A stretch of 64,000 nt of DNA, from positions 124,001 through 188,000 of the forward strand of contig NZ_JAPDOD010000001.1 in assembly GCF_027587205.1 (NCBI RefSeq), written 5' to 3'. Under the pieces are notes generated by a model. It was not told the DNA's origin, did no database searches, and saw nothing but the letters and a program-made list of their open reading frames with translations. A program made the translations under genes and the position numbers. Positions 4,886 to 60,483 of the stretch are shown here, in pieces; the stretch's first letter is position 1; each line of letters opens with the position of its first letter. The DNA comes from Solirubrobacter ginsenosidimutans (GTDB taxonomy: Bacteria > Actinomycetota > Thermoleophilia > Solirubrobacterales > Solirubrobacteraceae).

Positions 4886-4906
4886 TTCGCCGAGAAGAGC
4901 GACTTT
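4886..4906 (+). repeat. Dispersed directional repeat, copy 1 (divergent)
   Basis: Reads TTCGCCGAGAAGAGCGACTT followed by T, with one change in the CGTCGA half. It lies about 80 bases before a plus-strand gene and follows another plus-strand gene. Confidence 0.55.
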
Positions 4907-4988
4907 GCGTTCGCCTAACGGTGACGTCGGAGCCTGGGTGCGACACAGGTTGCTATCGCCACGGTCGCCGAATACCCTCGACGTCGTG

Positions 4989-5144
4989 ATGAAGATTGCG
5001 ATCGTCGCCGCGCTTGTGAGCGCCTACCTGCAACTCGGGTGGCTCGGGGTCGCTGCGGGACTCACGGGATGTGCGCTCGTGTGGGTCTTCGTCCTGATCT
5101 ACGCGCTCCGTTACGACGAGACCGATCTCGAAATCGAGCGCTAG
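4989..5144 (+). CDS. Small hydrophobic membrane protein
   Basis: A 51-residue protein starting MKIAIVAALVSAYLQLGWLG. Two hydrophobic stretches (about 3-20 and 22-40) end in an acidic tail DETDLEIER, so it is probably a two-helix membrane peptide with a cytoplasmic tail. The family is not recognised. The ATG at 4989 follows an in-frame GTG at 4986 that could also start translation. It stands alone between two copies of the dispersed repeat. Confidence 0.5.
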   Translation: MKIAIVAALVSAYLQLGWLGVAAGLTGCALVWVFVLIYALRYDETDLEIER

Positions 5145-5213
5145 GTCCCACAGCTCGGGCGACCGAGTAAGCGATCGCCTCGCGCTCACTCGACCCAGAA
5201 GGAACATCTCGAG

Positions 5214-5234
5214 TTCGTCGAATAGCGAGACTCT
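5214..5234 (+). repeat. Dispersed directional repeat, copy 2
   Basis: Reads TTCGTCGAATAGCGAGACTC then T. It lies between convergent genes, 70 bases after the stop of the small membrane gene and 105 bases beyond the stop of the isomerase gene. Confidence 0.75.
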
Positions 5235-5339
5235 GCTGGGTTTAGGGCATCCTCGCTTGGTCGCCAAGGCTGCGTGGATCGCCGCCGCCGTGTGAGCGCC
5301 GGCTCCGGCGAGCTCCGCTCACCGATCAGGCCGTGTCCG

Positions 5340-6110
5340 TTATGCCATCGCGCGCTCGAGGTACGCCAGCGAGGCGAGGGTGTCTGCAGTCGGCCGGTAC
5401 TCCAGACCGATGTGACCTGAGTAGCCGGCCTCGTCGAGCCGGCGCAGAACTGTGGGCCAGTCGATGACGCCCGTGCCGGGCTCGTGACGCCCGGCGTGGT
5501 CGGCCACGTGGACGTGGCCGATCAGGTCGCCCTTCCCTGCGATCGGAATACCGGGATCCTCGCCCATCACCGCCGAGTGGTAGACGTCGTAGAGGAGCTT
5601 CACGTGCGGCGAGCAGGCCTCCTCGACCAGACGCAGGCCGTGGCCGGTGCCGGTCACGAAGAAGCGTGGATGGTCGGTGTCATTGAGCGGCTCGAAGAGC
5701 AGAGTGAGCCCGTGGCGCCCCGCGATCTCCCCGCCCGTGCGCAGCGCCGCGACGATCGCCGCCTCCTGCTCCGCCGCGGGCACATCCGGCAGCCTCTCGC
5801 CCGAGGCGACCACCAGCGTCGCGCAGCCGAGCGTTGCGGCCGCGCGCGCGGAGTCCTCCGCAGCCTCCGCGAACTCCGCCAGCCGCCTGGCATCCACGAT
5901 CGGAACCTGCGGCTCGACGAGCATCATCACGATCGCCACCCCGCCCGCATGCGCCGCCTCGCCGACCGCCTCAAGGTCCTTGTCGCGCCAGTGCCAGAAC
6001 TCCACTCCGTCGAGCCCCGCGTCCGCAGCGCGGCGGACCCGCTCCGGGACGGGCGCTCCGTCTTCGGCGAACAACCACTCGATGCAAGCCGACCGTGCGA
6101 ATCTCGTCAT
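5340..6110 (-). CDS. TIM-barrel isomerase, hydroxypyruvate isomerase-like
   Basis: A 256-residue AP-endonuclease-2/xylose-isomerase-like TIM barrel. It matches the hydroxypyruvate isomerase (Hyi) pattern: TLLFEPLND with the metal-binding Glu, KLLYDVYHSAVMGEDP, GHVHVADHAGRHEPGTG with metal and substrate ligands, and GLEYRP near the end. Hyi interconverts hydroxypyruvate and tartronate semialdehyde in glyoxylate metabolism, but related barrels act on other keto-sugars. No glyoxylate carboligase or tartronate reductase gene is adjacent, so the substrate stays open. The gene stands alone between two repeat copies. Confidence 0.85.
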   Translation of the reverse strand: MTRFARSACIEWLFAEDGAPVPERVRRAADAGLDGVEFWHWRDKDLEAVGEAAHAGGVAIVMMLVEPQVPIVDARRLAEFAEAAEDSARAAATLGCATLVVASGERLPDVPAAEQEAAIVAALRTGGEIAGRHGLTLLFEPLNDTDHPRFFVTGTGHGLRLVEEACSPHVKLLYDVYHSAVMGEDPGIPIAGKGDLIGHVHVADHAGRHEPGTGVIDWPTVLRRLDEAGYSGHIGLEYRPTADTLASLAYLERAMA

Positions 6111-6194
6111 GGCGAAAGGATCCTCGCTCGACGCGGGCGCGCGCGTCGCGGTCCGGGACGGGATCGTGCAGCTGGCGTTCGGCAGAGAGTCGCT

Positions 6195-6215
6195 ACCGTC
6201 GACGAAAAAGACTTT
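6195..6215 (+). repeat. Dispersed directional repeat, copy 3 (divergent)
   Basis: Reads ACCGTCGACGAAAAAGACTT then T. It lies upstream of the isomerase start and beyond the cyclophilin stop, between two minus-strand genes. Confidence 0.55.
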
Positions 6216-6373
6216 CCGTGTGCTTACGCGTGTGGCCTGGCGGCGGCGCCGAGGCGGCGAGTGGGACCAGACGCTAGAACGTGGCTCATGCCTTCAGATC
6301 TCGTCGAGGATGCCGCGTTGCTGCTTGAGTTCGCTCAGCGAGATTGCGACTTCTCGGCCATTCGCGCCAGCGG

Positions 6374-7180: not shown

Positions 7181-7203
7181 CGGGAGGTCTGGTGGGTATC
7201 GAA

Positions 7204-7225
7204 ATCGTCGAGAAGCGGCACACTT
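7204..7225 (+). repeat. Dispersed directional repeat, copy 4
   Basis: Reads ATCGTCGAGAAGCGGCACAC then TT. It lies between divergent genes (starts at 7039 and 7365), so it cannot be a terminator of either. Confidence 0.8.
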
Positions 7226-8798: not shown

Positions 8799-8905
8799 GC
8801 ACCCGCCGACTCGGATCCCCAGATCCGGCATCGGCCTAAGTGCTCCGCGACACGCTGTCCTCGGACCCTTGCAGAGCTCGCATGTTGTCGTGAGACAAGG
8901 ATCCT

Positions 8906-8926
8906 TCCGTCGATAGGCAACACTCT
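8906..8926 (+). repeat. Dispersed directional repeat, copy 5
   Basis: Reads TCCGTCGATAGGCAACACTC then T. It ends 4 bases before the GTG start of the next plus-strand gene. Confidence 0.6.
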
Positions 8927-8930: not shown

Positions 8931-9260
8931 GTGGCGCCGGAACTGAAGCGCGTGCAGGTTCGCGCCATCGCCTACGATGCCGAGCCGATCGCTCGCCGGC
9001 TTCGCGTCGACTACATCACCCGACCCGCGCATCGGTTCGAGTCCGTTGCGGTGCAAGAGACGCCCGACGAGGTTCGAATCGCGATCTTCGCGACCGCGCC
9101 TCGGGGGCCGACGCGAGCCAGCGGACACATGCACTCCCTGATGATCGTCCTCGCCCAACCCGTGGGAACTCGCCGCGTCGTCGATACGCGGAGCGAGAGA
9201 GTCCTGCAGCGTCTGCCCGCGCCAGTCGATCCTCCACAGCCGGGTGGACCCGGCACCTAG
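8931..9260 (+). CDS. Small conserved hypothetical protein
   Basis: A 109-residue soluble protein (GTG start) that I do not assign to a named family. The central part ETPDEVRIAIFA...MIVLAQPVGTRRVVD resembles a widespread actinobacterial type of small protein whose strand 'VRETxxEVRI' is followed by 'VxLxxPLGxRxVVD'. The C-terminus is Pro-rich. No ribosome binding site stands out because the dispersed repeat abuts the start codon, so the repeat would form its 5' leader. Confidence 0.65.
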   Translation: MAPELKRVQVRAIAYDAEPIARRLRVDYITRPAHRFESVAVQETPDEVRIAIFATAPRGPTRASGHMHSLMIVLAQPVGTRRVVDTRSERVLQRLPAPVDPPQPGGPGT

Positions 9261-9265
9261 GCGAG

Positions 9266-9286
9266 TTCGTCGACAAACGAGACTCT
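9266..9286 (+). repeat. Dispersed directional repeat, copy 6
   Basis: Reads TTCGTCGACAAACGAGACTC then T. It sits in the 50-base gap between two convergent stop codons (9260 and 9311). Confidence 0.78.
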
Positions 9287-9804: not shown

Positions 9805-9850
9805 CGCTGCCCGCGACGCTCGACGCGGATTCGTCGAGAAGCACCACTTT
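9805..9850 (+). repeat. Dispersed directional repeat, copy 7, extended form
   Basis: The core (TTCGTCGAGAAGCACCACTT then T, 9830-9850) is preceded by 26 bases (9805-9830, starting CGCTGCCCGCGACGCTCGAC) that recur, identical, before the core at 12741. The repeat unit can therefore be about 45 bp long. The flanking genes are divergent (9760 and 10091). Confidence 0.85.
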
Positions 9851-11223: not shown

Positions 11224-11334
11224 CGTGGCAGCGTACGCCCGGCCGTGCGAGCAGCCGTACACTCGGGAGCCGACGTTCGACGAGCGCCCGGTTCTCGCCC
11301 CCCCGCCGAGCGGTGCTAAGTCACGCTTCCGCCT

Positions 11335-11355
11335 GGCGTCGAGAAACGACACTTT
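11335..11355 (+). repeat. Dispersed directional repeat, copy 8
   Basis: Reads GGCGTCGAGAAACGACACTT then T. It lies between two minus-strand genes, upstream of one and beyond the stop of the other. Confidence 0.75.
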
Positions 11356-12716: not shown

Positions 12717-12761
12717 CGCTGCCCGCGACGCTCGACGCGGATCGTCGACAAGCGGCACTTT
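12717..12761 (+). repeat. Dispersed directional repeat, copy 9, extended form
   Basis: Carries the same 26-base upstream extension as copy 7, then ATCGTCGACAAGCGGCACTT and T. The IS110 element begins 27 bases after its end. The rest of the 12460-12788 spacer shows no gene. Confidence 0.85.
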
Positions 12762-12803
12762 GCTGGCGGCGCGCACCGCGCTTCTCCTTTTGCTGCTCCT
12801 ATG

Positions 12804-13862
12804 TCAAGAGATTGATGGTGTGATCGTCTGATTCTGGGTGGTGGCGTCGGTCTGGAGCAAGTGCCAGAGGCGGCGGGTGAGGTGGCGTTTGAGGCAGCGG
12901 AGGGCTTCTTTGGTGCTCTTGCCTTCGGCGCGTTTGCGGGCGATGTAGTCCTGGGTCTCGGGGTGGCAGCGCAGGCGGGTGACGGCGATGCGGTGGATGG
13001 TGGCGTTGATCTGGCGGTTGCCGCCGCGGTCCAGGCGGTGGCGGTTGGTGTTGCCGGAGCTGACCGGAATCGGAGCGACGCCGGCGGCGCGCGCGAGCTT
13101 GGCGTCGCTGGTGAACCTGGCCGCGCCGGCGATCTCGCCGACCAGCTTGGCCGCGGTCAGCGGCCCAAGGCCTGGCTCGGACAGGAGCTGTGGCGCGATC
13201 TCGGCGACCAGGCCCGCGATCTCGGCCTCGAGCGCCTTGATCGTCTGCGAGAGCTCGCGGATGCGGCGTAGTTCGTCGCGGGCGATGCGGACGCGCATCG
13301 TCTGCTCGGTGCGCGCGAGCCGCCGGGCGATGCGTGGGCCCCAGGTGCCGTAGAACAGCGAGCTGCCGGGCAGTCGTAGCTCGGGCCAGAGGTCGTGCAG
13401 ATGCCACTGCATCGTGTTGTTGAGCGCAACGCGCTGACGAACGAGGCGTTCGCGATGGTCCACGAGCAGCCGCAGATCGAGCTCAGGGCCCTGCAGGTGC
13501 GCGGCCGGCAGGGCGTCCAGGCCCTCGCGCAGCGCCGCCCGCGCGACCGCGAGCGCGTCGATGCTGTCGGACTTGCCGCGCGCGCGGGCGCGACGCCGCG
13601 TGTCGGCCATCAGCGTCGTCGTCACGCGCAGGACGCGCTCGCCGCGTGCGATCAGAAACCGCTCGAAGGAGCCCGACACGTGCCGACAGTCCTCCAGCGC
13701 CCACACCCGTTCGCTGCCGAGCTCGCGCGCCCAAACCACAAGCGCGGCAAATCCCTTGGCGCCGACCTGCACGGTCTGCTCGCCCAGCAGCTCGCCGGTC
13801 GCCGCCGAGACCGCGGCGATCGTGTGCGAGCGCTTGTGGGTGTCCGCACCGAGCACGATCAT
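12804..13862 (-). CDS. IS110 family transposase (copy 1)
   Basis: A 352-residue DEDD transposase/recombinase. The N-terminal RuvC-like domain holds GADTHK (Asp7), ALEDCR (Glu57) and KSDSIDALAVARA (Asp99, Asp102), the full DEDD set. The C-terminal Tnp domain has EPGLGPLTAAKLVGEI and PVSSGNTNRHRLDRGG with the candidate catalytic Ser268/269. ATG at 13862 is chosen because GGAGG lies about 10 bases upstream and MIVLGADTHK is the usual IS110 start; the frame stays open further up. It is identical to the second copy, so transposition was recent. Confidence 0.95.
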   Translation of the reverse strand: MIVLGADTHKRSHTIAAVSAATGELLGEQTVQVGAKGFAALVVWARELGSERVWALEDCRHVSGSFERFLIARGERVLRVTTTLMADTRRRARARGKSDSIDALAVARAALREGLDALPAAHLQGPELDLRLLVDHRERLVRQRVALNNTMQWHLHDLWPELRLPGSSLFYGTWGPRIARRLARTEQTMRVRIARDELRRIRELSQTIKALEAEIAGLVAEIAPQLLSEPGLGPLTAAKLVGEIAGAARFTSDAKLARAAGVAPIPVSSGNTNRHRLDRGGNRQINATIHRIAVTRLRCHPETQDYIARKRAEGKSTKEALRCLKRHLTRRLWHLLQTDATTQNQTITPSIS

Positions 13863-14102
13863 GACCTCGTCCACCTCCACCTCGGATTGAGTGGACGCCC
13901 GGCGGACACGGCTTGCTGAGGGCGCTGCCACGCTCCTATCAAGTCACGCCGGACCTCCCGACCGGCGACGAGCGACACAGCAAAAGGTGGTCAGGCCCGA
14001 CGGCCGACAGCCTCAAAGAGAGTCAGCTCGCCGCCGGTCGCGGAGCCTTCACCTCGCATCGGACGTCACCGACGAACCAGATCCAAACAGCAAGCCTCGA
14101 AG
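13863..14102 (-). ncRNA. Candidate IS110 bridge-RNA region
   Basis: This 240-base segment lies between the element's outer end and the transposase start, identical in both copies (56339-56578 in copy 2). IS110-group elements make a structured RNA here that pairs with target and donor DNA. The location matches; no fold was computed, so loops and guides are not assigned. Confidence 0.4.
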
Positions 14103-14147
14103 TGAAAGCGCCGTCGCGGACCCTTCGCCGCGCTTGCCATGGTCCTG

Positions 14148-15451: not shown

Positions 15452-15467
15452 TCGCGAAGTTCACGAG

Positions 15468-15489
15468 TTCGTCGAATAGCAGCACAATT
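15468..15489 (+). repeat. Dispersed directional repeat, copy 10
   Basis: Reads TTCGTCGAATAGCAGCACAA then TT. It lies 16 bases after the hairpin and 43 bases beyond the antiporter stop codon. No further copy occurs in the following 7 kb operon. Confidence 0.75.
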
Positions 15490-15531: not shown

Positions 15532-16779
15532 TCAGCTGGCATTGGCGCACGAGCTCCGGGCGGGTACGATCGGCACGATGGCTCGCAGTAGGGGGGAAGT
15601 CAAAAGCGTTGTGAAGATCGCCATCAGTGCTAGCAGCGTGAAGAGGCGATCGTCAATCAGTCCTTGTTCGCGGCCGACGGTTAGAAGGACGATCTCGATC
15701 ACCCCGCGGGTGTTCATCATCACGCCGATGGCGGCGGAGTCGCGCACGCTCTCGCGCGCGATGCGCGCTCCCGTGTAGGCACCGACGAATTTGCCCGCAC
15801 ACGCGGTCGCGAGGATGAGCGCGAGGTCCGCCAGATCGCTCTTTCTCAACCCGGGGATGTCCACCATCATTCCGGAGGTCACGAAGTAGATCGGGACGAG
15901 GAGGGCGCTGACGGGCGAGAGGCGCCGGCGGATCTCCGCGAGTGCAAGGTCCCTGTCCTGCCGTGGCATCGCCGCCCCAGTCAGGAAGGCGCCGAACGCG
16001 GCGTGGATGCCGATCGCCTCGGTGAGATAGGCGCCAGTGAGCGCCACGGGCACCACGAGCGCCTCGCGTGCCGGTGTCGCACTCCGCAGCAGGACACGGA
16101 GCAGTGGGCGTACGACCAGTGCGATGACGGCAACGAAGACGGCAGTCTCGACGAAGATCCGGATGTAGTCCCACGCTCCCCCCGCCTCGAGCGCCGTCAG
16201 CGCTATGGCGAGCGCGCTCCAGCCGACGATGTCGTCCACCGCTGCCGCGCTCAGCACCAGCACGCCCAGTCGGGTCTGCGACAGGCCGGTCTCCCGCAGG
16301 ATGCGGGCGAGGACCGGGAACGCCGTGAGGGACAGCGACGCGCCGACGAACAGGGCGAACGGCCAGAACGGCACCGGCGTACCGTCGACCGAGTCGTGGG
16401 TCTCGTGGAGGTGGACGGCGAGCGCCAGCCCGAGCGCGAATGGCAACAGCGTGGACGCGGCGGACACGGTGGCCGCCGCCGTCCCGCGCCGCCTGACGAG
16501 CCGCAGGTCGAGATCCCACCCGACGGTGAACATGAACAGCACGAGCCCGAGCTGGCCGATTTGTCGCAGGACAGTTGTCGCGTCTGCTGGAAAGAGGGCG
16601 CTCGACGGATCGCCGGGCAGCGCGCCCAGCAGTGTCGGCCCCAGCGCGATGCCCGCCACGAGCTCGCCGATCACCCCGGGTTGCCCGATGCGCTCGAACA
16701 GCATGCCGCCGGCCCGGGCAGCCAGCAGGATCACCGCGACATCCAGCACGATCCTGCCCGTCGTGAGCGTGGGGTGCAT
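15532..16779 (-). CDS. CPA2-family cation/proton antiporter
   Basis: A 415-residue integral membrane antiporter of the KefB/CPA2 type, with about 12 hydrophobic segments. It shows the family features IGQPGVIGELVAGIALGPTL (helix 2), SLTAFPVLARIL, the ion-binding AAAVDDIVGW Asp-Asp pair in the discontinuous helix, and MMNTRGVIEIVLLTVG. The TrkA-N/RCK regulatory domain that many relatives carry is absent, so it is a bare transport domain. It is the last gene of the five-gene minus-strand operon, starting 12 bases after the ATP-grasp gene's stop. Confidence 0.92.
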   Translation of the reverse strand: MHPTLTTGRIVLDVAVILLAARAGGMLFERIGQPGVIGELVAGIALGPTLLGALPGDPSSALFPADATTVLRQIGQLGLVLFMFTVGWDLDLRLVRRRGTAAATVSAASTLLPFALGLALAVHLHETHDSVDGTPVPFWPFALFVGASLSLTAFPVLARILRETGLSQTRLGVLVLSAAAVDDIVGWSALAIALTALEAGGAWDYIRIFVETAVFVAVIALVVRPLLRVLLRSATPAREALVVPVALTGAYLTEAIGIHAAFGAFLTGAAMPRQDRDLALAEIRRRLSPVSALLVPIYFVTSGMMVDIPGLRKSDLADLALILATACAGKFVGAYTGARIARESVRDSAAIGVMMNTRGVIEIVLLTVGREQGLIDDRLFTLLALMAIFTTLLTSPLLRAIVPIVPARSSCANAS

Positions 16780-16791
16780 CCCGGGAGCGGA

Positions 16792-18360
16792 TCAGAGTGG
16801 CGGCAACGCTGGCTCCGGAGGCGGGCCTGCCTCCTCGAGGAGCACGCGCTCGGCCCGCCGGAACTCGGTCTCGGCCTGCTCGCGGCTGTCGCCGACCGCG
16901 GTCAGCCCGACGCGGCCGAGCTCGGCGATCGTGCTCATCATGTGGAAGACGATGCCGGTCTGGCGAGCCTGGTCGAAGTGCATGCGGTTGCGGACGGCGA
17001 CGTCGAACAGGTCGTCGATCGACAGGGCACGCAGCAGGTCGGAATCGAGGTGGTCCGTGGCCAGGAGATGCTTCTCGCGCCCGCTCGGCGCGGTGAACAG
17101 CGCCGTGACGGGGTCATACGCACCGTCGGTGAGGAACTGCAGCGTCAGGAATGGGTGGGTCGTCCCGCCCTTGCGCAGGTTGATCTCGATCGCGTAGGCC
17201 CTCCACGACCCTTGGCCGTCGCGCACGACCACGAAGTCGACGGCGAAACGGCCGAGGACGCCCTCGCGCGCCAAGCGCTCTCCGATCTTGGCTGCCTCGC
17301 GGCTGATGGCCTGCGCGTAGCCGAAGTCGGCGGGGAACCGGCACCCGAGGTAGCTCTGACCGCTCGGGCCGCCGAGGAGCTGATCGTGCGTAGAGAGGAG
17401 CTCCACCTCGCCGTGCGGCGTCACCCGCAACTGGACGCTGGGACTGCGGAGCTCGGCACCGAGGAGACGCTCCTCCACGATGCCTCCGCCTGCGGCGAAC
17501 TGCGCGAGGTAGGCCTCGAGTCGCATGTCCGGATGCTCGAAGGCCATCGCCTCGACGCGGTGACGGAGTTCCGCCCGCTCGTCGGCGGAGCCGGGCGCCG
17601 GCAGGCCGCGCAGATCGACGAGCGCGTTGCCTCGCCCGGAGACACCGTCGTTGAGCTTGACGATCACCTCGGCGACGTTCGGTCTGGTCGCGCGCATGTC
17701 CGCGAGCGCCGCTACCACGCCGTCGAGATCGTGCAGGTCCTCGTAGCCGAGCGGGTGCGGGACGCCGGCCTCCGCGAACAGCCGCCGGCAGCCGGTCTTC
17801 GTGCCGAACGCGAGCAGGCGCGGATCGGCGCCGTAGAGCGGGATGCCGAGAGTCAGCGCGACGTCGCGCTCCAGCGTCGTGGTCGCGTAGGGCACGAGGT
17901 GGCAGCGGGAAGCGTCCGGGATCAGCCCGCGAATGTGCGCCAGAACGCGCGGACGTTCGAGCAGCTTCGCCGCGAGCGGTCGCGCCGAGCCGTCGTGGGT
18001 CGAGACCATGTGCAGGCGAGCACGGGCATGCCGGGGGATGACGCCTGGCAGCAGCCCGAGGTAGTAGTCGACGACGCTGTCGGGAACCGGGCGCCCCGTC
18101 ACGTAGATCACCCTCAGCCGCGGCTGCCGGAGCAGGAGCAGCAGGAAGAGCAGGCGCTCCTCGAGCGACTGCACCGCCGCTCCTCCCTGGGTCGAGTCCG
18201 GCGTCACGGATGGCACGACAACGATCGATTCGCCCGCCTGGTTGAGCCGCAGGGCGCTCCAGACGGGGAGGAGTCGCTGCTGGAGACGGGCGAATCGCGC
18301 GCTGCGCTCGTCGTCGCTCAATTCGCTGAGGCGCGGCGGGCTCTCGGCGACAGGGGTCAC
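16792..18360 (-). CDS. ATP-grasp peptide ligase, PGM1-related
   Basis: A 522-residue protein resembling the PGM1 peptide ligase of pheganomycin biosynthesis and its many uncharacterised relatives. The N-terminal part (to about 200) is the family's own domain. Then come an ATP-grasp fold with KLNDGVSGRGNALV (ATP-binding lysine and glycine loop) and a C-terminal metal/ATP site AYAIEINLRKGGTTHPF. Such enzymes join a carboxylate to an amine using ATP; the substrate is unknown here. The start ATGA overlaps the stop of the cyclase gene, so translation is coupled. Confidence 0.82.
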   Translation of the reverse strand: MTPVAESPPRLSELSDDERSARFARLQQRLLPVWSALRLNQAGESIVVVPSVTPDSTQGGAAVQSLEERLLFLLLLLRQPRLRVIYVTGRPVPDSVVDYYLGLLPGVIPRHARARLHMVSTHDGSARPLAAKLLERPRVLAHIRGLIPDASRCHLVPYATTTLERDVALTLGIPLYGADPRLLAFGTKTGCRRLFAEAGVPHPLGYEDLHDLDGVVAALADMRATRPNVAEVIVKLNDGVSGRGNALVDLRGLPAPGSADERAELRHRVEAMAFEHPDMRLEAYLAQFAAGGGIVEERLLGAELRSPSVQLRVTPHGEVELLSTHDQLLGGPSGQSYLGCRFPADFGYAQAISREAAKIGERLAREGVLGRFAVDFVVVRDGQGSWRAYAIEINLRKGGTTHPFLTLQFLTDGAYDPVTALFTAPSGREKHLLATDHLDSDLLRALSIDDLFDVAVRNRMHFDQARQTGIVFHMMSTIAELGRVGLTAVGDSREQAETEFRRAERVLLEEAGPPPEPALPPL

Positions 18361-23920: not shown

Positions 23921-24902
<982 letters not shown>

Positions 24903-47127: not shown

Positions 47128-47154
47128 GGCACCCTCCTTTGAATCGGTAGCGGA

Positions 47155-47451
47155 TCAGCGGGTGGGGCGAACGCCGGCGCGCGAGCCTGCCCAGGCGCCG
47201 CCGACGGCGAGCAGGACGATCGCGGCGGCGGCGGCGGCCCCGATGCCGGCCGAGCCCCAGTCGAGTCCTCTGTCGTTGCGGCGGATGACGGTCGGGGCGG
47301 GTGCGTGCGCTTGGGACGCTCCAGCCGCGGGCGGAGTGGGCGGTGCGGAGGTAGGGATGGTTTGCACGGGGCGCGCGCCGGCGGCTGGTGTGGCGAGGGC
47401 CGTGGCGGCGAGGGCGCCGGCAACGGCGCCCCTGAGACGGCGGGGCGGCAT
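47155..47451 (-). CDS. Small exported/membrane-anchored protein
   Basis: A 98-residue protein: signal peptide MPPRRLRGAVAGALAATALA, a Pro/Ala-rich outer segment, and one C-terminal transmembrane helix (SAGIGAAAAAAIVLLAVGGA then WAGSRAGVR). It looks like a short single-pass surface protein of the kind common beside secreted proteins in these bacteria. It diverges from the BTAD regulator, with the shared promoter at 47452-47599. Confidence 0.65.
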   Translation of the reverse strand: MPPRRLRGAVAGALAATALATPAAGARPVQTIPTSAPPTPPAAGASQAHAPAPTVIRRNDRGLDWGSAGIGAAAAAAIVLLAVGGAWAGSRAGVRPTR

Positions 47452-47599
47452 GATGGACCTCGGCTGAGGTGTGCGGGACGCCCGGGAGGCTGCCGCGGCC
47501 CGGTCGATCGCCGGTCGATTCTGGGTCAGTGGCCGGTCGATTCGCGGTGGCCGTCGCGGGAGTAGGCTCGCTCTGTCACTCCTCCGCCGTTCCTGCGGC

Positions 47600-50500
47600 A
47601 TGGACATCCGCCTTCTCGGACCGATCGAGACCAGTCTCGACAGCGGGCCCGCTGCGCTCGGGCCCAGGCAGCAGCGTGCCGTGCTGGCGATGCTCGCGTT
47701 GGAGCTCAATCGCACGGTGTCGACCGATCGGCTGATCGAGGGGTTGTGGGGCGAGCGGGCGCCTCCGAGCGCGCCCAAGCTCGTGCAGCTCTACGTGTCG
47801 CAGTTGCGCAAGCTGCTCGGCGCGGAGGCCGAGATCGTCACCCGCGGCCGCGGCTATGAGCTGCGCCTGGCGGCCGATCGCGTCGATGCCGCCCGGTTTG
47901 AGTGTCTCGTCGCTGAGGCCGCCGAGGCCAACGGCCCGGGCGCTGGGCTCGCGCGCGAGGCGCTCGCGTTGTGGCGCGGGCCGGCGCTGGCCGACGTCGC
48001 TGATGAGCCGTTCGCCGGTGCGGAGATCCGCCGGTTGGACGAGCTGCGGTTGCGCGCGACCGAGCTCGCGATCGATGGCGAGCTGGCCGCGGGCCGGCAT
48101 CGCGAGCTGATCGGCGAGCTCGAGGCGCTGGTGGCCGCGCATCCGCTCTCTGAGCCGCTGCACGGGCAGCGGATGCTGGCGCTGTATCGCTCCGGCCGCC
48201 AGGCCGAGGCGCTGGCGGCCTATCGGCACGCCCGCCGGGTTTTGGTCGACGAGATCGGCGTCGAGCCCGATCGCGAGCTGCGGCGCCTGCATGACGCGAT
48301 CTTGCGCCAGGACGCCGCGCTGGATCTGCCCGCCGCCGTGGCGCCGTCTGCCGCGGTGTCGTCTCCGGTGGTGGCCGGGGGCCGCGCGCCGCCGGTCGTG
48401 GCACGGACGCCGGGTCGGCGCGTGCTCGTTGCCGTGGCGGCGCTCGTGTTGGTCGGCGGGCTCGCGGTCTTCGCCGTCGGCCGCTGGAGCGGGCCCGAGC
48501 GGATCGCGTCGATCGACGAGAATGCGGTCGGCGTGATCGACCCGGGATCGGGGCAGATCACGGCGCAGTATCCGGTCGGGCGGGGAGCAAGCGCGCTCGC
48601 CGTCGGCGGCGGGTCGGTCTGGGTTGCCAACGCGGGCGACGGCACCGTGTCGCGGATCGAGCCCGGGCGCGATCAGATCGTGACGATCCCCGTCGGCGAG
48701 GGCCCGTCGGATCTTGCGTTCGCGGCCGGATCGCTGTGGGTCACCGATCGAGGCGGCGCGGTGTGGCAGATCAGCCCCGCGGTCAATCGGGTCGTGCGCA
48801 GGATCGCCGCGGGCAACGCCCCGCGTGGCATCGTCGCCGGGTTCGGGGCCCTGTGGGTGGCCTCCGAGGCAGACCGCACTGTGACCCGGATCGACCTGGA
48901 GCGCGGAGCGGTGACGCGCGAGATCGATCTGGGCGCGAACCCCACGGCGCTCGCTGTCGGCGAGGGTGCCGTGTGGGTCACGAGCGAGGAGGGCGCGACC
49001 GTGTTTCGGATCGAGCCGCGCTCGGGCGACGTGGTGAAGACGATCGCCGTCGGCAACGGCCCGGTCGACGTGGCGGTTGCAGGCGGGGCGGCGTGGACCG
49101 CGAACCGCCAGGACGCGACCGTCTCGCGCGTCGACGCTGCGACCGACGCGGTCACCGACATCGTCAAGGTGCCACGCGATCCGAGCGCGATCGCAGCCGG
49201 CGACGGCGGGGTGTGGGTTACGAGCTCGACCGATGGGACCGTCTCGCGGATCGACCCCGTGACGCGGCGGACAGCCGAGCCGATCGCGGTGAAGAGCAGT
49301 CCGATCGCGATCGCCGTCGCCGACGGCAAGGTGTGGACGGCGGCGCTCGCGGCGCCGGCGACCCACCGCGGCGGAACACTGCGGGTGGAGGCGAACCCGC
49401 TCGACTACGACCGCCTCGAGCCCGCCAGCTACGGCGACCTCACAGCCGACGCACTGCTCTCGCTCGCCTACGACGGCCTCGTTGCCTACCGGCGCGCCGG
49501 CGGCGCGATGTTCGGCCCGCTCGTCGGTGCTCTCGCCACCGACGTCCCGCCCCCGAGCCCTGATGGGCGAACCTACGTCTTCAAGCTGCGACCGAAGCTG
49601 CGCTACTCCGACGGCTCGCCCGTCCGCCCGGAGGACTTCCGCGCCTCGCTCGAAGCCCTCTTCCGCCGCGATCCCGGGCTCGGGTCGTACTACCAGGGGA
49701 TCGTGGGCGGGCAACGGTGCGCGAGACGGCCCGCGAGATGCGACCTGTCCGCCGGGATCGTGGCCGACGCGCGCCGGCGCACCATCACAATTCACCTGAC
49801 GCGACCCGACGGTGAGTTCCTCCACGGGCTTGCGTACTCGCTTGCGGTCGTCGCGCCGGCCGCGCAGCCCTTCGGCCGCGCGCAGCCTCCGGGAACCGGG
49901 CCCTACCGGATCGTCAGCTACGACCGAAAGCGCGGCGCGCGGCTCGTCCGCAACCCGCATTTCGGTGCGTCGTCGCCGGGTGCGCGCCCCGACGGCTTCG
50001 CCGACGAGATCGTCGTCCGCGTCAACCCTCACCGCGACGCCGAAGTCGCCGCCGTCCAGCGCGGAGAAGCCGACGTCGTGCCCGTCGTCGGGCCGTTCGG
50101 CGGTGCTGTGCACGCCAGCCTGCCGGCGCTCGCGACCCGCAACGCGGGACAGCTCCACACCACTGCCATGCCCGAACTGGACTACATGTTCCTCAACGTG
50201 CGCACGCCCCCGTTCGACGACCCGCGCGTCCGGCGCGCGCTCAACTACGCCGTCGACCGGCACGCGATCACCACGCTCGCCGGCGGGCCCGACCTCGCCC
50301 AACCCACCTGCCAGTTGCTGCCGCCCGGCTTCCCGAACTACCGACCGTCGTGTCCATACACGCTGCACCCGAGCCCCGGCGGCGGCTGGAGCGCGCCCGA
50401 CCTCGAACGAGCGCGGCACCTGATCGAGCAGTCTCAGACCAAGGGCACGAAGGTCACGGTCTGGATCAACCGCGAAAAGCGCGACATAGCCCGCTACTTC

Positions 50501-50935
50501 GTCTCGCTCCTGCGCGAACTCGGCTACCACAGCTCACTGCGCGTCTTCGGTGACTACCAGACCTACCGCAACGCGATGGCCCGTTCGCGCACGCCGCCGC
50601 AGATGGGCATCGACGGCTGGGCCGCTGACTCCTCAGCTCCATCGAACTTCGTGCCACCGTTCCGGTGCGCAGCGATCGCCCCCCGGTCGCCCGGCAACGA
50701 AAACCTGGCCCGATTCTGCGACCGCCGCCTCGAGTCGCGGATCGAGGCGGCGCTGGCCGCTCCCGGCCCGCGCGCCGACGCGCTCTGGAGGGGTGTATAC
50801 CGCGACCTTGAGGCCGCGGCGCCCGCCATCCCGCTCGTCAATCGCCGCGCCATCACCTTGGTCTCAAAGCGCGTCGGCAACTACCAGCATCACCCCGTCT
50901 GGACGACGCTCCTCGAGCAGCTCTGGATCCGCTAA
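47600..50935 (+). CDS. BTAD regulator fused to propeller and solute-binding domain
   Basis: An 1111-residue single-pass membrane protein. An OmpR-like winged helix (about 1-90) and a BTAD helical repeat (about 95-240) face the cytoplasm. One transmembrane helix (274-294, VLVAVAALVLVGGLAVFAVG) follows. Outside are a YVTN-type beta-propeller (about 305-590, repeats of VWVxxxxDGTVSRI) and a family 5 solute-binding protein domain (about 605-1111: GTLRVEANPLDYDRLEPASY, LSDGSPVRPEDF-like, DPRVRRALNYAVDRHAI). The binding domain would sense a peptide or sugar outside and change DNA binding inside. ATG 47600 is set by the domain start. Confidence 0.92.
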   Translation: MDIRLLGPIETSLDSGPAALGPRQQRAVLAMLALELNRTVSTDRLIEGLWGERAPPSAPKLVQLYVSQLRKLLGAEAEIVTRGRGYELRLAADRVDAARFECLVAEAAEANGPGAGLAREALALWRGPALADVADEPFAGAEIRRLDELRLRATELAIDGELAAGRHRELIGELEALVAAHPLSEPLHGQRMLALYRSGRQAEALAAYRHARRVLVDEIGVEPDRELRRLHDAILRQDAALDLPAAVAPSAAVSSPVVAGGRAPPVVARTPGRRVLVAVAALVLVGGLAVFAVGRWSGPERIASIDENAVGVIDPGSGQITAQYPVGRGASALAVGGGSVWVANAGDGTVSRIEPGRDQIVTIPVGEGPSDLAFAAGSLWVTDRGGAVWQISPAVNRVVRRIAAGNAPRGIVAGFGALWVASEADRTVTRIDLERGAVTREIDLGANPTALAVGEGAVWVTSEEGATVFRIEPRSGDVVKTIAVGNGPVDVAVAGGAAWTANRQDATVSRVDAATDAVTDIVKVPRDPSAIAAGDGGVWVTSSTDGTVSRIDPVTRRTAEPIAVKSSPIAIAVADGKVWTAALAAPATHRGGTLRVEANPLDYDRLEPASYGDLTADALLSLAYDGLVAYRRAGGAMFGPLVGALATDVPPPSPDGRTYVFKLRPKLRYSDGSPVRPEDFRASLEALFRRDPGLGSYYQGIVGGQRCARRPARCDLSAGIVADARRRTITIHLTRPDGEFLHGLAYSLAVVAPAAQPFGRAQPPGTGPYRIVSYDRKRGARLVRNPHFGASSPGARPDGFADEIVVRVNPHRDAEVAAVQRGEADVVPVVGPFGGAVHASLPALATRNAGQLHTTAMPELDYMFLNVRTPPFDDPRVRRALNYAVDRHAITTLAGGPDLAQPTCQLLPPGFPNYRPSCPYTLHPSPGGGWSAPDLERARHLIEQSQTKGTKVTVWINREKRDIARYFVSLLRELGYHSSLRVFGDYQTYRNAMARSRTPPQMGIDGWAADSSAPSNFVPPFRCAAIAPRSPGNENLARFCDRRLESRIEAALAAPGPRADALWRGVYRDLEAAAPAIPLVNRRAITLVSKRVGNYQHHPVWTTLLEQLWIR

Positions 50936-50983
50936 CGCGCATCACGGTCGGCCCCCTCTCTAGCCGCCCGGATGGATGCACCA

Positions 50984-51019
50984 GCGCGCTTCTCCTTCCG
51001 CCTGAACGGAGCAGCGCGC
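50984..51019. repeat. REP-like palindrome
   Basis: GCGCGCTTCTCC at 50984-50995 pairs with GGAGCAGCGCGC at 51008-51019 (one mismatch) around a 12-base loop. The arm CGCTTCTCC is the sequence found beside IS110 copy 1, so this may be an unoccupied version of the insertion target. It also lies beyond the stop of the BTAD gene and could act as a terminator. Confidence 0.6.
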
Positions 51020-51041
51020 CGATGGGCGCTGGCCGTCTCTA

Positions 51042-51063
51042 GGTCGTCGAGGAGCAGCACAAT
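51042..51063 (+). repeat. Dispersed directional repeat, copy 18
   Basis: Reads GGTCGTCGAGGAGCAGCACA then AT. It lies between convergent genes, 46 bases beyond the stop of the membrane protein at 51110. Confidence 0.72.
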
Positions 51064-51457: not shown

Positions 51458-51588
51458 TCGACGAACCTATCGCGCACACCCCAGTCCGGAGCAGCCGCGG
51501 CCGTGCCGCTGCGTGTCATCGAGAGGGCAGCAATCCGCGTGCCGATTGGCGCCGCCGCGTTGACACGGAGTCCCTGCAAAGTGCTGGA

Positions 51589-51609
51589 GGCGTCGACAAG
51601 CAGCACTCT
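51589..51609 (+). repeat. Dispersed directional repeat, copy 19
   Basis: Reads GGCGTCGACAAGCAGCACTC then T. It lies 26 bases beyond the end of the abortive-infection pseudogene. Confidence 0.8.
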
Positions 51610-52487: not shown

Positions 52488-52572
52488 GCCGTCAGCCTAG
52501 GGTTGTTCAGACCCCCCGTCGACCACCGTCGCGCGTCGCAGCAGCGCCATTGATGCCGGCCATCGCGTCCAG

Positions 52573-52593
52573 ATCGTCGAGAAGCGGCACGTC
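52573..52593 (+). repeat. Dispersed directional repeat, copy 20
   Basis: Reads ATCGTCGAGAAGCGGCACGT then C; the last bases differ. It lies 86 bases upstream of the start of the abortive-infection pseudogene. Confidence 0.7.
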
Positions 52594-53385: not shown

Positions 53386-53700
53386 TCAGCCGAGCGCGTA
53401 GCGGAGCCAGTGCGGTGAGACGGCCTCGAGCCGCCAGCCCCTGGCCCGCGACGCGTCGGCGACGAGCTTCCAGCGCAGCGCGAACTCGCGCTGGCGGTGG
53501 AACGAGCCGTGGAGAGCGAACGCGGCCGGTCCCGGGCGTAGGCGGCGCGAGCTTGGCCCGAAGCGGTAGGTGCAGCACGAGCGTGGTACCGCGCAGTCGC
53601 AGTGGAGTCGCGTCAAGCTCCGCAACGGCGCGCAGGACGACGTGGTCGGAGCCCGCGTCGAGCGGCGCCGGGTCGCCGAAGATCGCGCAATCGTCGAGGA
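53386..53700 (-). pseudogene. Decayed hypothetical gene
   Basis: Two in-order halves in different frames: IFGDPAPLDAGSDHVVLRAV with LDATPLRLRGTTLVLHLPLR, then GPAAFALHGSFHRQREFALR with WKLVADASRARGWRLEAVSP HWLRYALG. Each half looks coding, together they would make one protein of about 105 residues. Family unknown. Repeat copy 21 overlaps its presumed start. Confidence 0.4.
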
Positions 53701-53710
53701 GCAGCACTGC
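53690..53710 (+). repeat. Dispersed directional repeat, copy 21
   Basis: Reads ATCGTCGAGGAGCAGCACTG then C. It overlaps the upstream end of the decayed gene at 53386. Confidence 0.7.
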
Positions 53711-54451: not shown

Positions 54452-54540
54452 ATGGAAGGCGCGCCGCCGCCACAGCAGCGCGGCGCGCCAACCGATCTGT
54501 GAGCAGCGCGACAGGCCAGCACGATCCGCAGAGCGCTCAG

Positions 54541-54561
54541 ATCGTCGAGAAGCGGCACACT
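54541..54561 (+). repeat. Dispersed directional repeat, copy 22
   Basis: Reads ATCGTCGAGAAGCGGCACAC then T. It lies 90 bases after DUF1059 and 121 bases beyond the stop of the next (minus-strand) gene. Confidence 0.8.
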
Positions 54562-55203: not shown

Positions 55204-55220
55204 CCCGACACGGCGGCGCT

Positions 55221-55241
55221 TTCGTCGACAAGCGACACTTG
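55221..55241 (+). repeat. Dispersed directional repeat, copy 23
   Basis: Reads TTCGTCGACAAGCGACACTT then G. The second IS110 element starts 23 bases after it, close to the 27 bases seen for copy 9 and the first element. Confidence 0.85.
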
Positions 55242-55264: not shown

Positions 55265-56578
55265 TTTGCTGCTCCTATGTCAAGAGATTGATGGTGTGAT
55301 CGTCTGATTCTGGGTGGTGGCGTCGGTCTGGAGCAAGTGCCAGAGGCGGCGGGTGAGGTGGCGTTTGAGGCAGCGGAGGGCTTCTTTGGTGCTCTTGCCT
55401 TCGGCGCGTTTGCGGGCGATGTAGTCCTGGGTCTCGGGGTGGCAGCGCAGGCGGGTGACGGCGATGCGGTGGATGGTGGCGTTGATCTGGCGGTTGCCGC
55501 CGCGGTCCAGGCGGTGGCGGTTGGTGTTGCCGGAGCTGACCGGAATCGGAGCGACGCCGGCGGCGCGCGCGAGCTTGGCGTCGCTGGTGAACCTGGCCGC
55601 GCCGGCGATCTCGCCGACCAGCTTGGCCGCGGTCAGCGGCCCAAGGCCTGGCTCGGACAGGAGCTGTGGCGCGATCTCGGCGACCAGGCCCGCGATCTCG
55701 GCCTCGAGCGCCTTGATCGTCTGCGAGAGCTCGCGGATGCGGCGTAGTTCGTCGCGGGCGATGCGGACGCGCATCGTCTGCTCGGTGCGCGCGAGCCGCC
55801 GGGCGATGCGTGGGCCCCAGGTGCCGTAGAACAGCGAGCTGCCGGGCAGTCGTAGCTCGGGCCAGAGGTCGTGCAGATGCCACTGCATCGTGTTGTTGAG
55901 CGCAACGCGCTGACGAACGAGGCGTTCGCGATGGTCCACGAGCAGCCGCAGATCGAGCTCAGGGCCCTGCAGGTGCGCGGCCGGCAGGGCGTCCAGGCCC
56001 TCGCGCAGCGCCGCCCGCGCGACCGCGAGCGCGTCGATGCTGTCGGACTTGCCGCGCGCGCGGGCGCGACGCCGCGTGTCGGCCATCAGCGTCGTCGTCA
56101 CGCGCAGGACGCGCTCGCCGCGTGCGATCAGAAACCGCTCGAAGGAGCCCGACACGTGCCGACAGTCCTCCAGCGCCCACACCCGTTCGCTGCCGAGCTC
56201 GCGCGCCCAAACCACAAGCGCGGCAAATCCCTTGGCGCCGACCTGCACGGTCTGCTCGCCCAGCAGCTCGCCGGTCGCCGCCGAGACCGCGGCGATCGTG
56301 TGCGAGCGCTTGTGGGTGTCCGCACCGAGCACGATCATGACCTCGTCCACCTCCACCTCGGATTGAGTGGACGCCCGGCGGACACGGCTTGCTGAGGGCG
56401 CTGCCACGCTCCTATCAAGTCACGCCGGACCTCCCGACCGGCGACGAGCGACACAGCAAAAGGTGGTCAGGCCCGACGGCCGACAGCCTCAAAGAGAGTC
56501 AGCTCGCCGCCGGTCGCGGAGCCTTCACCTCGCATCGGACGTCACCGACGAACCAGATCCAAACAGCAAGCCTCGAAG
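55265..56578 (-). mobile_element. IS110-family insertion sequence, copy 2
   Basis: Same orientation as copy 1 and no difference detected over 1314 bp. Flanks: CGCTGCTCC just outside one end (55255-55263) and CGACAGCG outside the other (56579-56586). The 240-base segment 56339-56578 is the matching candidate bridge-RNA region. Confidence 0.92.
55280..56338 (-). CDS. IS110 family transposase (copy 2)
   Basis: A 352-residue protein, residue for residue the same as the copy at 12804-13862, with the same DEDD residues and the same GGAGG-led ATG. The shared sequence extends through both non-coding ends, so the pair probably arose by one recent transposition. Confidence 0.95.
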   Translation of the reverse strand: MIVLGADTHKRSHTIAAVSAATGELLGEQTVQVGAKGFAALVVWARELGSERVWALEDCRHVSGSFERFLIARGERVLRVTTTLMADTRRRARARGKSDSIDALAVARAALREGLDALPAAHLQGPELDLRLLVDHRERLVRQRVALNNTMQWHLHDLWPELRLPGSSLFYGTWGPRIARRLARTEQTMRVRIARDELRRIRELSQTIKALEAEIAGLVAEIAPQLLSEPGLGPLTAAKLVGEIAGAARFTSDAKLARAAGVAPIPVSSGNTNRHRLDRGGNRQINATIHRIAVTRLRCHPETQDYIARKRAEGKSTKEALRCLKRHLTRRLWHLLQTDATTQNQTITPSIS

Positions 56579-56705
56579 CGACAGCGTTAGTCAACAGGGC
56601 GAGTAGGCGAGCAAGAGCCGCTGACACGTCGGAGTCCTTGTCTAGCTAGCTAAGGACCCCGATCTGAACATCGCCTCCTGTGGTTGCAGCGTCGGTGATC
56701 AGGGC

Positions 56706-58674: not shown

Positions 58675-59618
58675 TGCGCGAAGTGCCCTTCGTCGCGGCC
58701 ACCGAGGCCTACCGCGCCGAGCTGCTCCAGCACTGCTACCGGATGCTCGGCTCGGGCGCGGACGCCGAGGATCTCGTGCAGGAGACGTATATGCGCGCGT
58801 GGCGCGGCTGGGCGGGCTTTCAGGGTCGGTCCTCCGTGCGGGTGTGGCTCCACCGCATCGCCACGAACGCGTGCCTCTCCGCGCTGGAGGGACGTCCGCG
58901 CCGGGCGCTGCCGAACGGCCTCGGCGCACCCGGGGACGACCCGTCCCAGCCCCTTCCCGAGGATCGCGACGTGCTGTGGGTGCAGCCGTTGCCCGACCCC
59001 GCCGACGTGGCGACCGCCAACGCCAGCCTGCGACTGGCGATGATCGCCAGCCTGCAACAGCTGCCGCCGCGCCAGCGCGCGGTGCTCATCCTGCGCGACG
59101 CGCTCGACTGGAAGACCGAAGAGATCGCGGACGCGCTCGGCACGACCGTACCCGCCACCCGCAGCATCCTGCAACGCGCCCGCGCCAAGCTCTCCGAGGC
59201 GCCGCTCGACGAGCGCGACGTCGTCGAGCCGACCGAGCCCGAGGTCCGCGCGCTCCTCGACGGCTACATCACGGCCTTCGAGCAAGCCGACATCCACTCA
59301 CTGGAACGCGTCCTGCGTGACGACGCCACGCTCGAGGGGACGAAGTCGAAGACATGGTTTAGCGGCAAACGGACCTGCCTAGAGTTCATCGGGCGTTCTC
59401 TGCACCAGCCCGGCGCCTGGCGCCTGATCCCGACGACGGCTAACGGGCAGCCCGCCGCCGCCGCGTACTGGCACGGCACGCCCTACGCGATCGTGGTCCT
59501 CACGATCGCCCGCGACGGCATCACCGCGATGACCGTGTTCACCGACACCGCGCTCTTCCCTCGGTTCGGGCTGCCCGCCAGCGCGCCGCCGCACCCGGGG
59601 CTGACCAACGGGGACTAG
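58674..59618 (+). CDS. ECF RNA polymerase sigma factor (SigX5-like) with SnoaL tail
   Basis: A 314-residue extracytoplasmic-function sigma factor: region 2 YRAELLQHCYRMLGSGADAE then DLVQETYMRAWRGWAGFQGR, region 4 LQQLPPRQRAVLILRDALDW then EEIADALGTTVPATRSILQR. The extra C-terminal SnoaL-like domain (about 195-310, ending GLPAS) is the mark of the SigX5/SigJ type, where the tail replaces an anti-sigma factor as the control element. ATG 58674 overlaps the esterase stop, so the pair is one operon and the esterase may be in its regulon. Confidence 0.93.
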   Translation: MREVPFVAATEAYRAELLQHCYRMLGSGADAEDLVQETYMRAWRGWAGFQGRSSVRVWLHRIATNACLSALEGRPRRALPNGLGAPGDDPSQPLPEDRDVLWVQPLPDPADVATANASLRLAMIASLQQLPPRQRAVLILRDALDWKTEEIADALGTTVPATRSILQRARAKLSEAPLDERDVVEPTEPEVRALLDGYITAFEQADIHSLERVLRDDATLEGTKSKTWFSGKRTCLEFIGRSLHQPGAWRLIPTTANGQPAAAAYWHGTPYAIVVLTIARDGITAMTVFTDTALFPRFGLPASAPPHPGLTNGD

Positions 59619-59624
59619 ACCTGC

Positions 59625-59888
59625 TCAGCCGGCTCGAGGAACGCGGCCAGCCCCATACCAGTCCGCGAAGCGGCGATGCACGGGCCCTAGCTTCCGATGC
59701 TCCGCCTGCGGATCTGTGCCAGCTATCTCCTCCTCGCGCACCGGAGCCCACAGCTCGCATTCGCCGCTTTCGCACACGGTGATCTGGCCCGCCGTCTCGC
59801 CTCGGGTCACCGCTAGCCACGCCGAGGCGCTTTCCCGCCCGTCATCGGGACTGCGCTCCAACGTCGCGTCAATGCCTCGCGCCTTCAA
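59625..59888 (-). CDS. Small hypothetical protein, possibly frameshifted
   Basis: An 87-residue protein, MKARGIDATLERSPDDGRES then ASAWLAVTRGETAGQITVCE and SGECELWAPVREEEIAGTDP. The pattern ARGID...SPDD...AWL...GQ-TV--SGECEL is familiar from small actinobacterial hypotheticals. Upstream, MVEQLASS (ATG 59935) and ERTDLKARGID would join in-frame but for one shift and a stop, so the original start was probably longer. Confidence 0.5.
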   Translation of the reverse strand: MKARGIDATLERSPDDGRESASAWLAVTRGETAGQITVCESGECELWAPVREEEIAGTDPQAEHRKLGPVHRRFADWYGAGRVPRAG

Positions 59889-60021
59889 GTCGGTGCGCTC
59901 CCGTTCTTACGAGGATGCGAGTTGCTCGACCATTTCAGCGGCAGTCTGACGGGCGACTGCTTCTTTTCGCCTCAAGCAGCGACGACGCCACGCGCCGGCG
60001 GTAGCGTCGCGAGGTATCGAA

Positions 60022-60042
60022 ACCGTCGAGAAGAGGGACTCT
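60022..60042 (+). repeat. Dispersed directional repeat, copy 24
   Basis: Reads ACCGTCGAGAAGAGGGACTC then T. It lies 21 bases beyond the stop of the next minus-strand gene. Confidence 0.72.
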
Positions 60043-60062
60043 CGGACGTTCCGGAGCGCCGG

Positions 60063-60395
60063 TCAATCGGGCAGCCAGCGTGTGCCGTCCGAGTCAGGTG
60101 GACCGGGCGAAAGGGCGTCGGCGGCCTCCAGGGCTTCCTTCCAATTGGCGACGACTGTGCCCGCCCAGCCGATTCGCGAGGCGCGATCGGACGCATCGCG
60201 AGGCACCGCTTCCACGCGATAGGCAACCCGCCCGCCGGGAAAGCGCTCGGCGGTGCACCCGATTACGAGGTCGAGTCCGTCCAAGCGAGCATCACAGTTG
60301 GTCGCGCCTGCCGGCGGAAATCGCTCAATCTGCTCCGCGGCGGCGCGAAGTACGTCGCGCGCAAAGACGTCGTCCTCTTCCGAGCTGGTGACCAT
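60063..60395 (-). CDS. Hypothetical protein, 110 aa
   Basis: MVTSSEEDDVFARDVLRAAA then EQIERFPPAGATNCDARLDG LDLVIGCTAERFPGGRVAYR and VEAVPRDASDRASRIGWAGT. Soluble alpha/beta, no recognised family. It is the only gene between repeat copies 24 and 25. Confidence 0.55.
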   Translation of the reverse strand: MVTSSEEDDVFARDVLRAAAEQIERFPPAGATNCDARLDGLDLVIGCTAERFPGGRVAYRVEAVPRDASDRASRIGWAGTVVANWKEALEAADALSPGPPDSDGTRWLPD

Positions 60396-60462
60396 CAGGT
60401 CACGGTAGCCGCCGCCGCGACACCGGACACCGATCGCGCCGGAGGCAGGGCAGAAGGTTCGA

Positions 60463-60483
60463 ATTCGTCGATGGGCACCATTT
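60463..60483 (+). repeat. Dispersed directional repeat, copy 25 (divergent)
   Basis: Reads ATTCGTCGATGGGCACCATT then T. It lies in the spacer between divergent genes (starts at 60395 and 60663). Confidence 0.5.

Follow-up and report, generated by a model that had tools for sequence, protein, structure and literature searches.

We analysed a 64,000-nucleotide stretch of the Solirubrobacter ginsenosidimutans genome (contig NZ_JAPDOD010000001.1, positions 124,001 to 188,000 of the forward strand; hereafter the window), in which a short repeat with the central hexamer CGTCGA recurs in a single direction. A 19-bp pattern allowing up to two mismatches matched the window 15 times, all 15 on the plus strand, compared with an expectation of 0.02 from dinucleotide shuffles; when more mismatches were allowed and degenerate copies were aligned, 25 plus-strand copies were obtained, with hexamers from 4888 to 60466. 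We consider it likely that these repeats serve as recombination sites in an array of gene cassettes that is integron-like in layout and of a tyrosine-recombinase type, in which a putative enzyme would act on double-stranded sites.

Each site is 33 bp long and is made up of a left arm, the hexamer and a right arm, the two arms forming an imperfect inverted repeat; about 14 partly conserved upstream bases (A at -13, C at -6, WT at -2/-1) precede a 19-bp core. Sites recovered by pattern, alignment and matrix alike, all on the plus strand, occupy 7192-7224 (hexamer at 7206), 8894-8926 (8908), 9818-9850 (9832), 11323-11355 (11337), 23110-23142 (23124), 35635-35667 (35649), 37251-37283 (37265), 41782-41814 (41796), 45324-45356 (45338), 45669-45701 (45683), 51577-51609 (51591), 52561-52593 (52575) and 54529-54561 (54543). 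Those recovered by alignment and matrix, on the same strand, lie at 4874-4906 (variant hexamer CGCCGA at 4888), 5202-5234 (5216), 6183-6215 (6197), 9254-9286 (9268), 15456-15488 (15470), 44559-44591 (44573), 51031-51063 (51045), 53678-53710 (53692) and 60452-60484 (60466). The plus-strand sites at 12729-12761 (12743) and 55209-55241 (55223) each precede an insertion sequence, and the one at 60010-60042 (60024) opens a cassette common to Solirubrobacter soli (L108:1248-1706).

An earlier note on this DNA had described a 20-bp repeat with about 26 plus-strand copies and one minus-strand copy. The repeat is real, but alignment of the copies shows that the unit is longer; 25 of the plus-strand copies were borne out, at the coordinates given there to within 2-3 bases (these begin at the preceding TT or AT), while the sole minus-strand match at three mismatches, at 22610, stays below a matrix score of 10. 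In a matrix scan of the window all 25 plus-strand copies scored at least 23.7, and the next best places reached 15.6 (the mirror image of site 6197), 11.6 and 10.9; since this matrix was trained on the same 25 copies it is circular for the window, and independent support comes from the 19-bp pattern scan and from other genomes. The intergenic placement held, with none of 24 sites inside genes called by our own gene caller at a coding fraction of 0.69 (a second matrix at a score of at least 20 was used here, which drops one of the 25 sites). The operons at 15532-22533 and 23920-31634 are free of sites, as the earlier note had stated, and the intervals that it listed as bracketing one gene each do exist, whereas several intervals hold several genes or none that can be called.

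An exact-pattern scan of 84,980 species genomes matched 75 stretches, ten of which belong to Solirubrobacter (S. soli, S. deserti and CPCC 204708, and S. taibaiensis). Further same-strand sites were present within the stretch in eight of these ten; because a second match, and a weak one, was found in only one of the other 65 (L061), those stretches were taken as chance. Among 146 genomes of the family, more than two matches at up to one mismatch occurred only in G001 (S. soli), G002/G003 (S. deserti CPCC 204708 and Solirubrobacter sp. CPCC 204708, which share a strain number and were counted as one strain), G004 (S. taibaiensis), G137 (S. pauli) and G138; G139 has one such match with two weaker sites nearby. 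Same-orientation arrays were found in S. soli, CPCC 204708, S. taibaiensis, S. pauli and G138. The second matrix was built from 139 sites, and 233 distinct sites were collected across loci. All 179 of 179 neighbouring pairs (score at least 20, at most 5 kb apart) share a strand, at a median spacing of 817 bp, in loci chosen because they held matches, a choice that favours neither strand, and 3 of 234 sites fall inside called genes where 111 would be expected.

A fixed strand within the window would also fit a replication-oriented signal such as KOPS (FtsK-orienting polar sequences) or Chi, an alternative that the earlier note had raised. The sites are, however, clustered and almost only intergenic, and in S. 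pauli a minus-strand array (C2:2,422,511 to 2,418,083) and a plus-strand array (C2:2,436,059 to 2,452,969) are separated by about 14 kb and both lie to one side of dif (C2:1,491,905). Arrays facing either way on one chromosome speak against a replication-polar motif, and we reject this alternative, leaving it an almost negligible chance.

That the units of these arrays meet at the hexamer is suggested by junctions within a single strain. Contig C211 of CPCC 204708 (5182 bp) has CGTCGA at both extremities and shares a terminal overlap of exactly 71 bases with each of four contigs, C69 and C399 on one side and C93 and C424 on the opposite side. The C93 and C424 copies diverge directly after the end of ...CGCAACCGTCGA, and the C69 and C399 copies join at CGTCGACAAACA; as read from contig ends, without read coverage, this branching indicates that one block occurs next to two alternative neighbours on the left and two on the right, and that on either side it is joined to them at the hexamer. 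A second node of this kind in the same strain is formed by contigs C393 and C200, which share a 71-base end starting TCGTCGA.

Comparison of 217 intervals between loci yielded 13 pairs that align over more than 55% of the shorter member. A cassette held by S. taibaiensis and G138 (1007 and 1006 bp) is 96.7% identical, with end identities of 0.96 and 0.96 inside the unit and 0.56 and 0.59 outside it, and one held by CPCC 204708 and G138 (508 and 507 bp) is 80.7% identical, with 0.75 and 0.86 inside and 0.64 and 0.64 outside; unrelated flanks give about 0.6 in this comparison. Comparing spacers among relatives, as proposed in the earlier note, thus revealed some homologous units that start and stop at the hexamer in different arrays and species, and such unit ends, together with the one direction kept within each array, support the cassette-boundary reading put forward there. 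At L125:4974-4983 two units of different origin abut without a site, with about 84 bp seemingly absent on each side relative to S. soli and CPCC 204708, so that a site may have been deleted there.

Of the 233 collected sites, 222 have an unchanged CGTCGA hexamer. A scan with the arms only returned 448 places, of which 224 were centred on CGTCGA, 49 on TCGACG (mostly mirror readings), 15 on TCCACA and 13 on TGTGGA, and some S. pauli sites approach the inverted repeat cGAAGTAGCGgaat-CGTCGA-nAAGCGCTACTTC. No arm-arm covariation was detected within any of seven groups of sites, one of which has only two members (p 0.14 to 1.0). Pooling all sites gave an excess (1203 against 1146, standard deviation 15), over half of it at the position pair -7/12, which we ascribe to differences between species. 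Such independence within groups is what would be expected if the two arms belong to different cassettes and are recognised in double-stranded form, and it does not suit a folded attC site.

These data bear on whether the window could be a true integron array with unusual attC sites, of the kind known as a CALIN (cluster of attC sites lacking an integron integrase). The architecture is integron-like, with sites in one orientation, a distinct terminal site and cassettes carrying varied genes, but the attC boxes RYYYAAC and GTTRRRY turned up five times at no more than 60 bp from any of 24 window sites, where 2.8 occurrences would be expected, and at no fixed place. An attC-like hairpin, suggested in the earlier note, was unsupported: mean hairpin z-scores were -0.5 and -0.6 on the two strands relative to mononucleotide shuffles, no R or L box columns are conserved, and the arms do not covary within groups. 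Against the integron-integrase profile TIGR02249, with its cut-off of 265 bits, the three array-linked recombinases covered by the scan reached 58 (family A), 62 (family B) and 60 bits (family C, S. pauli L204:8225-9343). A true integron array is therefore very improbable.

Many arrays carry a larger site of a second kind at their downstream end. These terminal sites have the core TGTGGA, flanked in most cases on both sides by TTCGA...TCGAA repeats, of which the left one is absent in L137 and the right one in L215. Nineteen were counted, 17 in G001, G003, G004, G137 and G138 and two more found via the S. soli arms, leaving out L262, L271 and L272 (three mismatches and no repeats) and the G002 duplicates L260 and L265. 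All 19 share the strand of the array to which they belong and follow its last detected site at a distance of 0.2 to 8.3 kb downstream; in some of these arrays no more than one to three sites were detected, and one weak site (score 13.9) lies beyond the terminal of S. soli C10. A 2.0-kb terminal unit that is 92% identical between S. taibaiensis and S. soli stops in both with the final base of TGTGGA, and beyond it the two genomes diverge, so that this hexamer too looks like a crossover point. In one S. pauli array the first site (L202:9409) is centred on CGTGGA, a hexamer intermediate between CGTCGA and TGTGGA such as would be expected from a hybrid of the two types of site.

The full terminal matrix found nothing in the window; the one trace of a terminal there is a left half at 36393. 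This possible array-terminal remnant (36379-36411, plus strand) consists of the left half GAAAGTGGCGAGAT, which is similar to that of the terminal sites in the other genomes, followed by TGTGGA at 36393, with an unconserved right half and an arm score of 4.3. Next to it lies a broken tyrosine recombinase gene of family A (36474-37127, minus strand), whose 3' end faces the half-site; 169 amino acids remain open, and the HxxR stretch is lost in that frame. As judged from this one TGTGGA half-site, the window may be split into an array running from 4888 to 35649 and ending at 36393 beside the broken gene, and a second array from 37265 to 60466.

Two side observations concern the surroundings of the terminals. 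A conserved GC-rich, possibly structured non-coding stretch of about 60-340 bp, mostly at 78-93% identity, lies just outside six of the 17 terminals (L199:4903-5159, L206:7286-7644, L210:921-1262, L197, L121 and L135) and also elsewhere (L124:18812-19155 and L277:6113-6454); it matched no Rfam family above threshold, and an Rfam search of seven array loci returned only tRNAs and a riboswitch, all in L203. By inspection, one terminal in S. pauli and one in CPCC 204708 adjoin genes resembling type IV secretion operons (L275:11248-16600 and L274:612-5200), and some arrays may therefore ride on conjugative elements.

Three terminal or half-terminal sites are directly adjoined by tyrosine recombinase genes, all of which point towards TGTGGA. 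An intact 295-amino-acid gene product of family B is encoded in S. soli (C35:6683-7567) by a gene ending 34 bp from the terminal site, a broken family B relative ends 64 bp from the terminal in S. pauli, and the broken family A gene of the window ends about 56 bp from its left half-site. At three more terminals (L280, L138 and, by a profile of our own, L215) another tyrosine recombinase lies 1.6 to 3 kb outside. Family A proteins (about 237 amino acids) are intact within an S. pauli array (C2:2419394-2420104) and broken or partial within arrays of S. soli, S. taibaiensis and the window. Serine recombinases gave 20 matches in six genomes, none within 15 kb of a fetched array. The scores of family B against profile cut-offs were 131/335 bits for XerC, 112/330 for XerD and 62/265 for IntI, and among seven relatives of known structure Xer proteins rank best and IntI4 comes last.

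Family A as the sole, array-specific enzyme was rejected, given that 55 of 232 genomes of the order hold it and that CPCC 204708 is without a close relative. A further reason is that 15 loci around such genes held no array of this site, nor did three G139 loci; single weak matches of 11.6 to 17.9 were present in four of the 15, one of them a mirror pair, and none in the other 11. Half-sites near family A 3' ends showed no overall enrichment in 38 flanks, three of which have a strong right half 38-45 bp downstream (L290 of G220 and L291 of G209 at 42-45 bp, S. soli at 38 bp).

The housekeeping recombinases XerC and XerD could instead act on the sites, as in dif modules, with no dedicated integrase. 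They form the only tyrosine recombinase group present in every array genome searched, and in S. soli, CPCC 204708, S. taibaiensis and S. pauli the chromosomal dif (for example L282:1501) is centred on TCGACG, which reads exactly as CGTCGA on the opposite strand. The dif arms, however, fit the site matrix poorly, since scores as good are reached by 4.5% of the other CGTCGA places in S. pauli and by 7% in S. taibaiensis, and likeness to dif beyond the hexamer was rejected as not significant. Moreover, G138 has CGTCGA arrays and yet a dif hexamer TCAACG, which is also the dif centre of G139, while G026 combines a TCGACG dif with one pattern match, and the orientation of the sites is uniform (the 179 same-strand pairs) where dif modules alternate. 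We therefore regard a dif-module-like system as unlikely.

The broken or partial state of most recombinase genes in or beside arrays (the window, family B in S. pauli, family A in S. soli and S. taibaiensis) would also suit relic arrays, whose recombinase is now lost in most lineages and whose present sharing comes about by homologous recombination and conjugative elements; the type IV secretion-like genes noted by inspection beside the S. pauli and CPCC 204708 terminals point the same way. Against this, the alternative hexamer junctions within one strain and the 96.7% identical cassette in two species argue for recent exchange, and we hold the relic explanation to be rather doubtful.

Under the reading that we prefer, an array of cassettes moved by a tyrosine recombinase, each cassette would comprise CGTCGA and the right arm, often one gene in either direction, and a left arm, with the next CGTCGA opening the next cassette. 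The enzyme, whose class we infer, would most likely bind the two inverted arms and exchange strands within the 6-bp hexamer. Adjacent direct sites could then release a circle, a presumed intermediate that could re-enter at another site, and because CGTCGA is not palindromic every insertion would keep one orientation. The larger TGTGGA terminal at the downstream end of many arrays may act as a platform, like the attI site of integrons, with a candidate recombinase gene abutting it in some arrays. Arrays, their orientation, unit boundaries at the hexamer in several cases and terminal sites are read directly from the DNA; terminal-site function and the recombinase's identity are proposed from that layout.

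Several observations weigh against this interpretation. In the arms-only scan of 12 control loci, centres other than CGTCGA were at chance (27 real against 28 shuffled). Only two of the 13 shared pairs are similar right up to both sites and two more at one end; in the remaining nine, among them the window cassette 60024-60466 and its S. soli counterpart (77.5% over 324 bp), the likeness is confined to the interior or fades towards the ends. The window contains intervals of 7 to 12 kb with ordinary operons, and no circular cassette form was observed. When 22 loci, 15 of them from S. soli and one being the window, were scanned for terminals under relaxed settings, only L215 was added, leaving many arrays or array pieces without a detected terminal (two more came later from another matrix). 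The terminal TGTGGA differs from CGTCGA, and a strict overlap-homology rule would forbid recombination between them. For 14 of 20 terminals (the 19 and the window half-site) no tyrosine recombinase was found outside, within up to 4.5 kb examined and less in two loci, and clustering at 38% identity gave no tyrosine recombinase group common to all array genomes searched, XerC/XerD excepted. Family B is absent (at E <= 1e-30) from G002, G003, G004 and G138 and present in G067, which has no site at up to one mismatch, and in G139, which has few; family A is widespread in the order, as counted above, and has no close relative in G002/G003. Because of the terminals without a recombinase, the gaps in family B and the occurrence of family A in array-free genomes, we name family A or B as the array enzyme only tentatively, at appreciably less than even probability.

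Among the other features of the window are two copies of an IS110-family insertion sequence, at 12788-14110 and 55265-56586, which are 99% identical over 1369 aligned bp and in the same orientation; the first starts about 45 bp downstream of the site at 12743 and the second about 42 bp downstream of that at 55223. In S. soli a related element (L114:17816) follows another site at a distance of about 77 bp. It is possible that IS110-family elements target array sites; one report places other insertion sequences at pdif sites (PMC10132070). A 4.7-kb block at 46307-51016 is 88% identical to S. taibaiensis C915:64082-68774, and one of its ends is less than 50 bp from a site hexamer in both genomes (51045 in the window), the other end not being at any detected site. 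Among named species S. soli is the nearest to the window in these comparisons: stretches of the operon at 23920-31634 are 78-83% identical to S. soli C26, and the best named relative of one window protein comes from S. soli at 86%, behind other sequences at up to 95%. A Pfam scan of ten window proteins left three without any Pfam family, and an Rfam scan of the window found nothing at gathering score.

We found no account of such arrays in Solirubrobacter, or of this site, in searches of the openly accessible literature, and integrons are reported to be extremely rare in Actinobacteria (PMC9024848). If the cassette system is real, it would give access to a reservoir of hitherto unseen mobile genes, and the capture of cassettes by a differently built system, in a soil lineage that is common, would demonstrate more than one origin for arrays of gene cassettes. 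The system would also offer a ready test of how a recombinase serves arrays that lack folded single-stranded sites.

Compared with integrons (IntI, attI and attC), the Solirubrobacter arrays likewise consist of often single-gene units in one orientation, with a distinct terminal in many of the arrays and, in some, a recombinase gene beside it. In contrast to attC, their site is short, with two conserved inverted arms around a 6-bp hexamer, and has neither attC boxes nor a folding signal; the recombinases fall far below the IntI cut-off, and the recombinase gene points at the terminal site. The dif modules of Acinetobacter plasmids are also delimited by short sites in which arms flank a 6-bp spacer, and one account places the crossover at pdif and has excision depend on directly oriented sites with like spacers (PMC13141974). 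In Solirubrobacter, too, the 6-bp spacer appears to be the crossover place, given the contig branch points and the homology that in some cases ends at the hexamer, but where C and D modules alternate and spacers vary in dif modules, orientation here is uniform, the hexamer is nearly constant and the arms are not dif arms. Sites of the FimB/FimE and Cre/lox types share the short inverted arms around a central overlap, but those systems invert or resolve single segments, whereas Solirubrobacter has cassette arrays. We give about an even chance to the broader proposal that these arrays represent a third, independent class of gene-cassette system beside integrons and dif modules, which would be defined by core sites of 33 bp that recombine as double strands and whose 6-bp overlap hardly varies, by a composite terminal with a different overlap upstream of which cassettes collect, and by interchangeable tyrosine recombinases docking beside that terminal, and which would have spread through Solirubrobacter on chromosomes and conjugative elements.

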